A DNA stretch of 64,000 nt, from NCBI RefSeq assembly GCF_002934365.1, contig NZ_PTIY01000007.1, positions 124,001-188,000 on the forward strand, written 5' to 3'. The translations under genes were made by a program, and so were the position numbers. The stretch is from Methylobacter tundripaludum. Lineage in GTDB: Bacteria > Pseudomonadota > Gammaproteobacteria > Methylococcales > Methylomonadaceae. The stretch's first letter is position 1. Every line of letters begins with the position of its first letter. Positions 23,955 through 49,298 of the stretch are shown one piece after another. The notes under the pieces were generated by a model. It ran no database searches, was not told the DNA's origin, and saw nothing but the letters and a program-made list of their open reading frames with translations.

Positions 23955-24051
23955 TATAAAGCATGCACCGGGCTGATAATTTGACGGAGTTTTGTGGTAT
24001 AGAAGGATATTCATTCTTTATTTAGACGGTTTTGATATGATAAGCAACATT

Positions 24052-24068
24052 CGATACGTTGCGTATCG
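24052..24068. promoter_or_regulatory. Inverted repeat upstream of the copper-RiPP operon, possible operator
   Basis: CGATACG (24052-24058) and CGTATCG (24062-24068) are perfect inverted heptamers separated by TTG, about 60 bases before the precursor gene. The symmetry suits a dimeric regulator. No regulator family can be named, and a structural role in RNA is possible. Confidence 0.4.
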
Positions 24069-24130
24069 ATTAATCTCCCGACTTAACCCGCTGGGAGCGG
24101 ATTGAAACAACCAACACCCCTGGAGTTACA

Positions 24131-24532
24131 ATGAAAAAAATTAATAAAACCCCTTTAGCTGCTGCAATGGGTGCCGCTTTTTTGTCTACATTTGCTGCAA
24201 CTGCGGTTAATGCAGAAGCCAATCCTTTCGGTATGACTGAATTGTCGGCCGGTTACATGCAAGTTGCCGCTGCGGATAAAGCGGCTGAAATGTCATGCGG
24301 TGCGTCAATGGGCGGTATGGAGAAGCCTAAAGCGGCGGAAGGAGCATGTGCGGGCAACAAAAAACCAGATGCAGCAAAACCAGCCGCCGAAGGCAAATGC
24401 GGCGAAAGCAAATGCGGCGCGATGATGCAAGACGGCAAAATGAAACCAGGTATGGAAGCGGCCTGCGGCGCGATGATGAAAGGCAAGGAAGGCTCTTGCG
24501 GCAATATGTCTAAAGAACCCGCCGGCAAATAA
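24131..24532 (+). CDS. bufA: Bufferin/HvfA-type copper-binding RiPP precursor
   Basis: A 133-residue Cys-containing precursor. A Sec signal peptide ends with AVNA around residue 28, followed by NPFGMTELSAGYMQVA, a stretch typical of this precursor group. The mature part has six cysteines (56, 73, 90, 95, 112, 123), five of them in CG pairs, including EGKCGESKCG. In the HvfA/bufferin families the cysteines in EGKCG-type motifs are converted by the DUF692 enzyme to copper-binding thiooxazole or oxazolone/thioamide groups. The next two genes encode both expected maturation proteins. Copper sequestration in the periplasm is therefore likely. Confidence 0.82.
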   Translation: MKKINKTPLAAAMGAAFLSTFAATAVNAEANPFGMTELSAGYMQVAAADKAAEMSCGASMGGMEKPKAAEGACAGNKKPDAAKPAAEGKCGESKCGAMMQDGKMKPGMEAACGAMMKGKEGSCGNMSKEPAGK

Positions 24533-24563
24533 GTCTAAGGCGGCCTTTCCGTTTTTAGCATAA

Positions 24564-24588
24564 GGAGGGCGTGATCATCATGCCCTCC
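24564..24588 (+). other. Strong hairpin between precursor and maturation genes
   Basis: GGAGGGC (24564-24570) pairs with GCCCTCC (24582-24588), and the inner bases extend the stem to 11 bp (one G-U) with a TCA loop. No T-run follows. It could act as a partial terminator or RNA-stability element so that precursor mRNA exceeds enzyme mRNA. Confidence 0.55.
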
Positions 24589-24619
24589 AGTTCCCATCAA
24601 ATCACAGCAAGGTGTTCTT

Positions 24620-25471
24620 ATGGACACAACCCAGAATCTCGTTCACGGCGCCGGTTTAGGTCTTAGGCGATCATTTTTAAGCCAGATTGTTGAATCCCCG
24701 CCCGAAGAAGTCGGTTTTTATGAGGTCGCGCCGGAGAACTGGATCACCATCGGCGGAAAATTCGGCAAGCAGTTTCGCGCGATGACCGAGCGATTCGATT
24801 TTGTCTGTCACGGCTTATCGCTGTCGATAGGCAGCACCGATCCGCTGGATGAAAAATTCGTCCGCGAAGTCAAACGGTTCATGGCCGAACATCAAATAAA
24901 ATTTTACAGCGAACATTTAAGTTATTGCAGCAAGGACGGACATTTATATGACCTGATGCCGATCCCGTTTACCTCGGAAGCGGTTACCCATGTTGCCGGG
25001 CGGATCAAGCGCGTCCAGGATATTCTGGAGCAAAAGATAGCCATCGAAAACGTGTCCTATTACGCCGCCCCCGGTCAGGAAATGGCCGAGATCGATTTTT
25101 TCAATGCGGTTATCGAAGAAGCCGATTGCGATGTGCTGATCGACATCAATAATATTTACGTGAACAGCGTTAACCACGGTTACGATGCCGAGGCTTTTTT
25201 AAAGGCCGTGCCTGCGCACCGCATCGCTTACGCGCATATTGCCGGGCATTATGTCGAGGCTGAAGATTTTCTGGTCGACACCCACGGCGCAGACGTGATC
25301 GATCCGGTCTGGAAACTGTTGGGCAAGGCTTATGAGCTTTACGGAGTGTTTCCGACGCTGTTGGAGCGGGATTTTAATATCCCGGAGATGGAAGAGTTAA
25401 TCAGGGAGGTTAACACCATCAGCGCGATACAAGCCGCTTGGGGAACCCAGCATGCCAAGCAATCCGCTTGA
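24620..25471 (+). CDS. bufB: DUF692 RiPP maturation enzyme (BufB/HvfB/MbnB-type)
   Basis: 283 residues, TIM-barrel fold multi-iron oxygenase family that modifies cysteines of the partner precursor. Seen: FYEVAPENWITIGGKF, HGLSLSIGSTDPLD, YSEHLSYC, IENVSYY, DINNIYVNSVNHG, HIAGHY and VDTHGADV, which together provide the His/Asp/Glu ligands of the iron centre. The start GAGLGLRR is family-typical. It lies 87 bases after the precursor, separated by a hairpin. Methanobactin MbnB is a relative, but the precursor here is much longer and secreted, so the bufferin/HvfB role is preferred. Confidence 0.9.
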   Translation: MDTTQNLVHGAGLGLRRSFLSQIVESPPEEVGFYEVAPENWITIGGKFGKQFRAMTERFDFVCHGLSLSIGSTDPLDEKFVREVKRFMAEHQIKFYSEHLSYCSKDGHLYDLMPIPFTSEAVTHVAGRIKRVQDILEQKIAIENVSYYAAPGQEMAEIDFFNAVIEEADCDVLIDINNIYVNSVNHGYDAEAFLKAVPAHRIAYAHIAGHYVEAEDFLVDTHGADVIDPVWKLLGKAYELYGVFPTLLERDFNIPEMEELIREVNTISAIQAAWGTQHAKQSA

Positions 25472-25478
25472 GGCCGGT

Positions 25479-26228
25479 ATGAGCGTCGATTTTAAAACCA
25501 AGCAGAGCGAGTTTGCCGCGTACATCAGAGATCCCGAACACAATTCGCCGCCTGCCGATGTCCAGCCGCAGCGCATGGCGATGTATCGCGAGCTGTTTTT
25601 TAATAATATCGACAGCTTTTTGTCGGCCAATTTTCCAGTGTTGCGGACACTATTGAATGACCGGCAATGGTTTGAGCTGGGACAGGATTTTTTCGCCAAG
25701 CATGTCAGTCGTTCGCCGCATTTTTCAGAAATCCCTGAAGAGTTTTTGGATTATCTGCAAAACGAGCGGGACGGTGCGGATGATTTCCCGTTTATGCTGG
25801 AGCTGGCGCATTACGAATGGGTGGAAATGGCCTTGTCCATCGCCAAGGAAACCGTGCATGAAAATCAGCAGAACCTGGATGATTTGCTCAATAGGCGTAT
25901 TCAGTTGTCGTCTTTAGCTTGGCCGCTGGCCTACCAATATCCCGTCCAGCAAATATCCCCCGCTTTTTTACCTGAAACGGCGCCGGAACAAGCCACCTTC
26001 CTGGTTGTTTATCGCAATCCGAATGACGAGGTTAATTTTATAGAAATCACTCCGATCACTTACCGGTTGCTGGAAATAATCCAGGAGCATGAAGGGATAT
26101 TGGCGGCCGATTGTCTAAAGCAGGTTGCCGGGGAATCGAAGCATCCTAATCCTGAAATGATTATCGCAGGTGGTTTGCAGGTATTAAAAGAACTGGCAGG
26201 GAAGACGGTTATTACGGTTGTTGCTTAA
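25479..26228 (+). CDS. bufC: DUF2063 RiPP partner protein (BufC/HvfC-type)
   Basis: About 250 residues. The N-terminal domain (FAAYIRDPE, then RMAMYRELFFNNIDSFLSANFPVLRTLL) is the DUF2063 helical domain found in HvfC/BufC, which binds the precursor and the DUF692 enzyme. A C-terminal alpha/beta part (ITYRLLEIIQEHEG) follows. The ATG at 25479 is preceded by GAGG and starts as the family does; an alternative ATG at 25452 would overlap bufB by 20 bases. The two genes are in any case tightly coupled. No DoxX-type fourth gene follows. Confidence 0.87.
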   Translation: MSVDFKTKQSEFAAYIRDPEHNSPPADVQPQRMAMYRELFFNNIDSFLSANFPVLRTLLNDRQWFELGQDFFAKHVSRSPHFSEIPEEFLDYLQNERDGADDFPFMLELAHYEWVEMALSIAKETVHENQQNLDDLLNRRIQLSSLAWPLAYQYPVQQISPAFLPETAPEQATFLVVYRNPNDEVNFIEITPITYRLLEIIQEHEGILAADCLKQVAGESKHPNPEMIIAGGLQVLKELAGKTVITVVA

Positions 26229-26266: not shown

Positions 26267-26375
26267 GAAATTTTTCCGTTCGCCCTGAGCTTGTCGAATG
26301 GGGTGGGCGGAAAAATTTCGACCCACCGCGTCAAGCCGATCATGCTTCGACAGGCTCAGCACGAACGGCTTGACG
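26267..26375. repeat. Pair of palindromic repeats with TTCGACAGGCTC-type core
   Basis: Two adjacent hairpins after the copper-RiPP operon. The first has arms GAAATTTTTCCG/CGGAAAAATTTC (26267-26278 and 26308-26319), the second CGTCAAGCCG/CGGCTTGACG (26329-26338 and 26366-26375). Their loops contain the same conserved core in opposite orientations (26278-26300; 26345-26368). The core recurs at 28499, 38270-38335, 49115, 49255 and 63511-63600. Confidence 0.75.
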
Positions 26376-26467: not shown

Positions 26468-26932
26468 TCAATTAGCCTGTGGCACTCTGGTAAAATCCGG
26501 TCCTTTAGGCAGGGCGTTCTGTTGCAGGCAATGATAAGCCGCATTCTCATACTTGATCACTAAAGACTGGGCGTTTTTATGCTCGCCGAGAAACAGTTGA
26601 GCCTCATCGGCAGTCAAATCTTTCATCAAGAATTTGGCTATGCACATGCACGGCGTAGAATAGCGCGCCTTATCGAATTCTTTATTGGTTGAATTCTTCA
26701 ATTCCCGTTGTACGCATTGGTCGGCAAAATCATGCTCAAACTTGTGTTTTTGTATATCGGTCACCGGGGTGTCGTGGGAATGGTCGAACGGGTTGTGCAC
26801 TTCGGCGGTCGCTGCCGGTTTCGCCGCTGCGGTTTTTTGTTCATCATCCGAACAGCCGGTAACCGATAATGCGATAACCGCGCTGGTCAGTGCAGCAAAA
26901 AAGAAGTTCTTGGTAAATGTGGGCGTTTTCAT
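26468..26932 (-). CDS. Small lipoprotein with conserved-looking cysteines
   Basis: 154 residues. A lipoprotein signal peptide ends in VTGC (lipobox), then a low-complexity linker, a His/Asp-containing NPFDHSHDTP segment and a helical part with DQC, TPCMC and YHC. The start at 26932 gives a proper signal sequence; longer in-frame extensions do not. The gene converges on the copper-RiPP operon across a repeat region. The family is not recognised. The CxC and HSH residues could bind metal, but this is inference. Confidence 0.65.
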   Translation of the reverse strand: MKTPTFTKNFFFAALTSAVIALSVTGCSDDEQKTAAAKPAATAEVHNPFDHSHDTPVTDIQKHKFEHDFADQCVQRELKNSTNKEFDKARYSTPCMCIAKFLMKDLTADEAQLFLGEHKNAQSLVIKYENAAYHCLQQNALPKGPDFTRVPQAN

Positions 26933-27098
26933 AAGTTTAAATCGTAAATAGTTTAATGAGGATTTGTTCAACTTTATCATTTTATCAAGACTCGTTCTAC
27001 CCATCTTCGTTGTTCATATTCAAGATGTTTACAAATAGCGCTATTCGTTGCGCGCCTGTTTTCGTTATCATGGGTTTTTCCATTGACGCCTTTCAGCC

Positions 27099-38240: not shown

Positions 38241-38358
38241 CTAGGGAAGCGCTGAACAAAATGCTTCCGTTCATGATTCGACAGGCTCACCACGAACGGA
38301 ATCAATACGTTACCGTTCGTCCTGAGCCTGTCGAAGGACTAAATCAGCGCTTCCCTAG
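38241..38358. repeat. Nested palindrome with two TTCGACAGGCTC-type cores
   Basis: Outer arms CTAGGGAAGCGCTGA (38241-38255) and TCAGCGCTTCCCTAG (38344-38358) are perfectly complementary over 15 bp. Inside are two copies of the dispersed core in opposite orientation, the first with its own short arms TTCCGTT/AACGGAA. Confidence 0.78.
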
Positions 38359-49107: not shown

Positions 49108-49152
49108 GTAAATCCGTTCGTCCTGAGCTTGTCGAAGGATGGGCGGATTTAC
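49108..49152. repeat. Palindromic repeat with TTCGACAGGCTC-type core
   Basis: Arms GTAAATCCG (49108-49116) and CGGATTTAC (49144-49152) enclose a core in the reverse orientation (CGTTCGTCCTGAGCTTGTCG). The arms differ from those of all other copies in the window. Confidence 0.75.
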
Positions 49153-49233
49153 GGTTGAGTTTGATATTATTCTTATCTGATAAGTAATTGAATTCATAAT
49201 AATATATTTTTGTTGGCTCATATAATCCATCAG

Positions 49234-49298
49234 AGCATGTCACCTTTCCCCATTCATCCTTCGACAGGCTCAGGGCGAACGGGGAAAGGTGACATGCT
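49234..49298. repeat. Palindromic repeat with TTCGACAGGCTC core and 18-bp private arms
   Basis: AGCATGTCACCTTTCCCC (49234-49251) pairs perfectly with 49281-49298. The loop contains CCTTCGACAGGCTCAGGGCG. These are the longest arms of the family in this window, and unlike those of the other copies. Confidence 0.78.

Follow-up and report, generated by a model that had tools for sequence, protein, structure and literature searches.

A methionine-rich, lysine-poor precursor in an HvfABC-type operon of Methylobacter tundripaludum, a probable source of an exported copper peptide

The window analysed here is a stretch of 64,000 nucleotides from Methylobacter tundripaludum (assembly GCF_002934365.1, contig NZ_PTIY01000007.1, positions 124,001 to 188,000), and all coordinates are those of the window. 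Three collinear genes on its + strand, spanning 24131-26228 by open reading frame (ORF) calls, make up an operon that is, judged by its profile matches, of the HvfABC (oxazolin/captophorin) type and not a bufferin operon. In this probable methane-eating bacterium the operon very likely makes an exported peptide with cysteines turned into copper-binding rings, and its precursor represents a form of a recently described peptide class that is rich in methionine and poor in lysine. We consider it quite probable, by analogy with characterised relatives, that the exported peptide binds copper(I) and that 5-thiooxazoles formed by HvfB are the ligands.

Operon layout and family assignment

The first gene (24131..24532, + strand) is an hvfA-like gene for the precursor of a ribosomally synthesized and post-translationally modified peptide (RiPP), with 133 aa and six E-x-x-C-[GA] motifs. 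The second, hvfB (24620..25471, +), encodes an MNIO (DUF692) maturase of 283 aa, assigned by profile matches and ligand mapping. The third, hvfC (25452..26228, +), encodes a 258-aa DUF2063/NGO1945_C partner, a RiPP recognition family by name. In Pfam, the 283-aa protein matched PF05114 (DUF692) with 354 bits against a gathering score of 25, and the 258-aa protein matched PF09836 (DUF2063) with 90 bits and PF22106 with 106 bits. In NCBIfam, the enzyme scored 444.3 bits for the HvfB equivalog NF003818 (cut-off 360) and the partner protein 309.5 bits for the HvfC equivalog NF050145 (cut-off 142). By hmmscan the precursor narrowly passed the HvfA domain model NF050137 (KCGExKCG_twice; 20.4 bits, cut-off 19.5). 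A six-frame search of the genome with the same model returned no match anywhere, not even in this window, and carries no information.

A preliminary description of the window had read a secreted six-cysteine precursor followed by a DUF692 enzyme and a DUF2063 partner. The ORFs, PF05114 and PF09836 bore this out, as did inspection of the signal for secretion. It had also likened the operon to HvfABC and bufferin systems alike. The HvfABC likeness stood, with matches to both equivalogs and to the HvfA domain, whereas bufferin membership was rejected: the enzyme scored 270 bits for the BufB equivalog NF050167 (cut-off 310), and DUF2282 (PF10048) was absent from the precursor, which matched no Pfam family at E 1. 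The profile searches that it had proposed were run and gave a divided result, with matches for DUF692, DUF2063 and the HvfA domain and none above cut-off for the full HvfA model, DUF2282 or BufB. Methanobactin membership was rejected as well, the window enzyme scoring 52.5 bits for the MbnB equivalog TIGR04159 (cut-off 325).

The precursor and its cysteine motifs

The precursor begins with a predicted Sec signal peptide, MKKINK...TAVNA (24131..24214, +), recognised by sequence inspection; an A-x-A-like pattern suggests cleavage after residue 28. The predicted mature peptide has 105 residues, of which 12 are Met. A conserved NPFGMTELSAGYMQVA block follows the signal peptide (24221..24268, +), in which P32, F33, G41, Y42, M43 and A46 are invariant in 55 precursors, and this block is probably the recognition segment for HvfC. 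Cysteine occurs exactly six times, at residues 56, 73, 90, 95, 112 and 123, in the pentamers EMSCG, EGACA, EGKCG, ESKCG, EAACG and EGSCG. The stretch coding for EGKCG-ESKCG contains a 15-nt tandem repeat (24388..24419, +; Tandem Repeats Finder, 2.1 copies, 94% matches). These are the very pentamers given in the preliminary description, which had called the pattern mixed; the irregularity did not hold, since all six fit E-x-x-C-[G/A] and the pattern is common to related loci. When the mature peptide was shuffled 200,000 times, no shuffle had more than 3 such fits. A beta-helix fold was considered and rejected, as AlphaFold with the 55-sequence alignment gave a mean predicted local distance difference test score (pLDDT) of 48.6 and a predicted template modelling score (pTM) of 0.17.

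We compared the operon with the best 80 of 313 related loci, 81 with the window. By title, 77 of the 80 were Methylococcales or a subgroup and 3 only Gammaproteobacteria or proteobacterium; named groups included Methylobacter, Methylococcaceae, Methylovulum, Methylomonas, Methylotuvimicrobium, Methyloglobulus, Crenothrix and others. Closest to the window were Methylobacter loci, for example that of M. tundripaludum SV96 (L041; 95% enzyme identity). Precursors were read in 77 of the 81 loci, three being cut by contig ends (L019, L024, L060) and one (L074) yielding none. These 77, which take in truncated L038 and N-interrupted L076, contained 676 Cys, with Glu at -3 in 564 and Gly or Ala at +1 in 645. 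The methanotroph set used for further counts comprised 75 precursors with 659 Cys, and the 55-precursor alignment is a subset of the 75, the nearer precursor being used where a locus has two. The curated HvfA models at E 0.01 matched 22 (NF050188) and 20 of these 55 lineage precursors.

In 10 orthologs, picked for sharing the six-Cys layout of the window, all six Cys, each Glu at -3 and each +1 residue were unchanged. The 18 codons for these residues had a nonsynonymous substitution rate (dN) of 0 and a synonymous rate (dS) of 0.30, and the rest of the core had a dN/dS of 0.15. Across the lineage, E(-3) was found at 551 of the 659 Cys. Lys preceded 125/659 Cys, compared to 144/153 in 20 HvfB clusters outside the family, where EGKCG accounted for 126/153; the remaining 534 methanotroph Cys had no preceding Lys. 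Ala or Ser before Cys was found in 414/659 in the methanotroph set and in 3/153 outside, and EGACA occurred 68 times compared to none. Median Met content was 11.5% in the 75 methanotroph precursors and 3.7% in the 20 outside ones, with overlapping ranges of 8.3-16.1 and 0.8-11.9. These comparisons are uncorrected for relatedness of the sequences, and the outside clusters were hand-picked among the stronger HvfB matches outside the family in the class sample, with the ORF richest in C[GA] taken as precursor. One of them, L108, belongs to another family of the same order as the window; its precursor has three Cys (EMKCG, EMKCG, EGKCA) and 10% Met.

Several precursor variants were also seen. Tandem precursor genes lie upstream of hvfB in L040, L045, L055 and L056, the first copy being shorter. 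Longer precursors (L003, L005, L009, L015-L017, L023 and others) have a C-terminal half with GAQCG, MKACD and MKGCG, with no Glu at -3. In L107, an outside cluster, an EF-hand-like insert, DKDGDGSVSRAEF, separates two EGKCG blocks.

The HvfB enzyme

The iron ligands of HvfB are H64, H99, E143, D175, N178, H206, D220, H222 and E249, and the base is D251. They were mapped by placing the published VcMbnB ligands (PMC8888699) and the HvfB site-3 residues (PMC13419390) via PDB alignments; here and below, published work is cited for the particular sections concerned. The printed MbnB alignment covers eight of the nine ligands; the ninth, H64, was placed by the HGLSLS motif common with 3BWW. Missing DUF692 iron ligands had been proposed as a ground for doubting the preliminary description; this check was run, and all nine ligands, like the base, were invariant in 81/81 sequences. 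FonB reads its substrate with two Arg and a Phe (PMC13097082), and the substrate-recognition positions R16, R17 and F252 in HvfB were kept in 80/81, 81/81 and 80/81, respectively. By sequence, the nearest solved relative of HvfB was 3BWW (MNIO; E 6e-72) and that of HvfC was PDB 3DEE (E 1.6e-9). Changes in the enzyme that would compensate for the loss of Lys were considered and rejected, only three group-specific columns (43, 73, 217) being found at the thresholds used.

Promoter and RNA elements

Upstream regions of close relatives aligned (22 sequences; 36 sequences) around GATATTCATT...TTTTGATATGAT, an extended -10 promoter. In the window this footprint, GATATTCATT..ATT....GGTTTTGATATGAT with the extended -10 TGATATGAT, lies at 24006..24041 (+). 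T-T-G-x-T-A-x-x-A-T was invariant in the 36-sequence alignment. Of 75 upstream regions, 42 (41 distinct) had the -10 pattern, and the 33 without it were for the most part more distant. A promoter regulon was rejected because the footprint has a single site in its own genome at ≤3 mismatches.

The -10 is closely followed by a dyad, TTCGATACG-TTG-CGTATCGAT (24050..24070, +), which may form a 5'-end hairpin. Its nine pairs had a covariation score of 0.246 compared to 0.167 in shuffles (0/500 as high), and slid versions reached at most 0.089. Pairs changed on both sides numbered 5, a count reached by 72/500 shuffles. The 36 sequences selected for these tests were the 41 distinct ones minus five (L031, L033, L035, L054, L066) without a TTCGA-type half-site, so the covariation test leans towards the dyad. 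The palindrome (24051-24069) as a regulon-wide operator was rejected: the genome has one exact site and three others with 2 mismatches, and half-site spacing runs from 7 to 10. Given this variable spacing, an operator is no more likely than a hairpin at the 5' end of the mRNA. Rfam families were also rejected, the two matches being below threshold (E 0.19 and 0.25).

A second hairpin, with 12-nt arms that are 92% complementary, lies between hvfA and hvfB (24564..24588, +). A stem of at least 10 bp was found in 50/65 loci, compared to 2.7% of dinucleotide shuffles, the 65 being those of 75 loci with an hvfA-hvfB gap of ≤140 bases. In 24 preselected sequences, taken from 28 listed, 7/9 pairs showed compensatory change. 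The hairpin is probably a processing or attenuation element. Possible effects are protection of the 3' end of hvfA or attenuation of hvfBC, and the outcome would be much precursor and little enzyme. In many of the 65 loci, a AGGTGTTCTT-like stretch stands just before the hvfB start; the corresponding region of the window, hairpin included, is 24564-24620.

At the 3' end of the operon is an inverted pair of elements like repetitive extragenic palindromes (REP-like), TTCGACA(A/G)GCTCAG (26285..26359, no strand assigned). REP-like TTCGACAGGCTCAG elements number 8 in the window compared to 0.02 expected (26285-26359, 28499, 38277-38335, 49123-49273, 63519).

Neighbouring genes and a second cluster

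The preliminary description had stated that no DoxX-type gene follows, and our results agree. The next gene after hvfC is a convergent lipoprotein-like ORF (26468-27004, - strand) without a Pfam match, and no DoxX gene was found in the window. The lipoprotein-like gene adjoins hvfC in 37/80 related loci and has a lipobox Cys51; Cys97, Cys119, Cys121, Cys159, His75 and His142 are conserved in ≥92% of 37 sequences. This gene is possibly a metal-related partner. Two tblastn queries, the DoxX of the genome and a DoxX-like protein, gave no match in the 80 related loci, 8 of which are without hvfC or end ≤712 bases after it, and the same two queries matched 8 of the 20 outside clusters. The sole PF07681 DoxX gene of the genome is on another contig, between ORFs read as pirin and a LysR-type regulator. 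PF07681 was present in the genomes of 16/20 relatives, and it lay at least 0.5 Mb from the operon in five large-contig relatives with comparable coordinates (L025, L026, L058, L068, L070). The DoxX evidence consists of the tblastn searches and the PF07681 positions; a Pfam scan of 115 ORFs lying downstream, for which 25 of the 96 families with matches were listed, does not by itself exclude a DoxX and was set aside. The mixed cysteines and the absent DoxX are traits common to related loci, not quirks of the window operon.

A second HvfABC-type cluster is present in the genome (L002 574-3561, contig C11), made up of a shorter precursor, an AhpD-like gene, HvfB, HvfC and a small membrane protein. 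Its precursor has EGKCGEGKCG and EGGCSG motifs and scored below both HvfA cut-offs. The small membrane protein was read as DoxX-like and matched MauE only, below the cut-off (18.9 of 27).

Discussion

The products of HvfA, FonA and NgoA (oxazolin, fontiphorin and gonophorin) carry 5-thiooxazoles, each Cys having given up four hydrogens, and binding of Cu was observed for fontiphorin and gonophorin (PMC13097082, PMC13419390). For oxazolin, an initial description as an oxazolone-thioamide was later revised to 5-thiooxazole (PMC13097082, PMC13419390). The chemistry proposed here is carried over from such characterised relatives, as are the part played by the leader, the export, the binding of copper and the role in the cell. 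HvfC would bind the N-terminal region of the precursor, made up of the signal peptide and the NPF...GYMQ block, and present the precursor to HvfB. HvfB, as an O2-using mixed-valent diiron enzyme, would then remove four hydrogens per Cys in the E-x-x-C-[G/A] sites to give 5-thiooxazoles. Conversion would most likely take place at all six Cys, a change of -24.19 Da, which would bring the predicted mature peptide (from Glu29) from a monoisotopic mass of 10424.62 Da down to 10400.43 Da. In a tryptic digest the six sites would fall into six different peptides. The Sec pathway would export the largely disordered peptide, the signal would be cut off, and in the periplasm the thiooxazoles, aided by many methionines, would hold Cu(I).

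That all six Cys are 5-thiooxazole sites is plausible. In vitro, FonBC accepts Ala before Cys and Ala after Cys, in EAACGEGACG and EAKCAEGKCA (PMC13097082), and this tolerance covers EAACG and EGACA of the window precursor. Ala before or after Cys should therefore be no bar, and conversion of six Cys would be expected.

In favour of the account as a whole are the HvfB and HvfC equivalog matches, the invariant ligands and base, the kept substrate-reading positions, the uniform motif with its conservation in the chosen orthologs, and the two PF02461 genes of the genome. Several observations weigh against it. The precursor scored 28.5 bits for the full-length HvfA equivalog NF050188, for which the cut-off is 95. 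AlphaFold gave it no fold, unlike the beta-helix reported for an EGKCG-repeat protein. Ser before Cys, as in EMSCG and EGSCG, is absent from the FonBC variants named in the relevant section of PMC13097082. The column of Cys90 holds Cys in 20/55 lineage precursors and the other five columns in 54 or 55, so that the most canonical-looking Lys-Cys pair, of which Cys90 is the first Cys, is the least kept. Copper control finds no support, because no copper-regulator site was recognised in the promoter and the footprint is unique in the genome. Finally, a related Microbulbifer operon was undetected in the proteome under copper stress, according to the passage cited from PMC12538549.

The same chemistry could have another purpose: the peptide would supply pMMO (the copper methane monooxygenase) as a store or relay of copper in the periplasm, instead of acting as a detoxification buffer. 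We regard this role as rather unlikely. The enzyme was found in 145/151 sampled genomes of the window's family (124/127 high-quality ones) and in 29/29 genera, compared to 170/274 genomes of a class-wide sample with any MNIO at the same threshold; by a hand count of best matches at E ≤1e-100, the figures were 144/151 and 83/274. No MbnB was found above the cut-off in the 151 family genomes (best 79 bits of 325) in a search that had no known mbnB carrier as positive control. Methylococcus capsulatus (Bath) and Methylomicrobium album BG8 are among several methanotrophs in which a 2013 survey, in the part cited, detected no methanobactin operon (PMC3621798). The genome of the window has two PF02461 (pMMO/AMO subunit) genes, and the precursor body is Met-rich and lineage-specific. 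However, any housekeeping role could give family-wide presence, and the functions published for the class suggest that copper is sequestered when in excess (PMC13097082).

It is also conceivable, if unlikely, that only the EGKCG-ESKCG pair is converted and that the other four Cys are free thiols, which together with the methionines would bind metal as any ordinary metal-binding protein does. These two sites alone keep the canonical Lys ahead of the Cys, and FonBC acted on two adjacent repeats and not on a single-repeat peptide (PMC13097082). On the other hand, all six sites are invariant in the chosen orthologs, E(-3) and +1 residues included, and over the 55 precursors it is the pair that is not kept. 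Most Cys of the lineage lack the Lys while most keep E(-3), which a plain thiol would not need, and FonBC tolerated EAACGEGACG (PMC13097082).

A product serving another stress or metal (gold, zinc or reactive oxygen) and not copper is improbable. Related pathways are also induced by gold and oxidative stress (PMC13097082), and the second operon of the genome has its AhpD-like gene, but the class products described in the passages cited bound copper. That the operon is a decayed or silent remnant is very improbable: precursor and enzyme are both under purifying selection, the RNA and promoter elements are conserved, and presence in the sampled family is near-universal.

Among known systems, the window operon resembles HvfABC/oxazolin of Haemophilus, of the captophorin class, in gene order A-B-C, an exported EGKCG-ExKCG precursor, HvfB and HvfC equivalogs and all iron ligands; it differs in that its precursor falls below the HvfA equivalog, its lineage is Met-rich with mostly Ala or Ser before Cys, and HvfX/DoxX was not found in the operon. 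It shares with fontiphorin FonABC of Fontimonas the enzyme signature of the Lys-Cys group (R-R and D-F), with E at position 1 and G/A at position 5, whereas four of its six motifs lack Lys and it has a single tandem pair. Bulbicupramide MmrABC of Microbulbifer likewise combines an MNIO and DUF2063 with EGKCG units and lineage-wide conservation, but has canonical EGKCG cassettes and belongs to another lineage (PMC12538549). The bufferins Buf1 and Buf2 also have an MNIO, DUF2063, an exported Cys-rich precursor and, in the accounts cited, thiooxazole chemistry; the window operon differs in having no DUF2282 and an enzyme below the BufB cut-off, and the Buf2 precursor model was not run separately. 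With methanobactin MbnABC it has in common the MNIO superfamily and the theme of copper peptides of methanotrophs, but its precursor is exported and it has a DUF2063 partner instead of MbnC.

A literature search at the level of titles and abstract beginnings returned no description of this operon in gammaproteobacterial methanotrophs. The section cited from PMC12452194 reports about 2,000 precursors with EGKCG, along with hundreds of Cys-rich ones that are unclassified, and the present precursors may be among these. The curated HvfA model reaches this precursor type in 22 of 55 cases at E 0.01, and its enzyme was found in nearly all sampled genomes of the family. The operon supplies a gene target and an exact mass prediction, and it would widen the natural substrate rule for thiooxazole formation from EGKCG to E-x-x-C-[G/A]. 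We offer one wider proposal tentatively, regarding it as rather unlikely in its full form: the operon could encode the peptide, so far missing, with which gammaproteobacterial methanotrophs in general handle copper. It would be a Met-rich thiooxazole metallophore particular to the lineage, made by an enzyme that has relaxed the Lys-Cys requirement to E-x-x-C-[G/A], and would store or relay Cu(I) in the periplasm for pMMO in organisms without methanobactin, while an RNA hairpin would fix how much peptide is made relative to enzyme.

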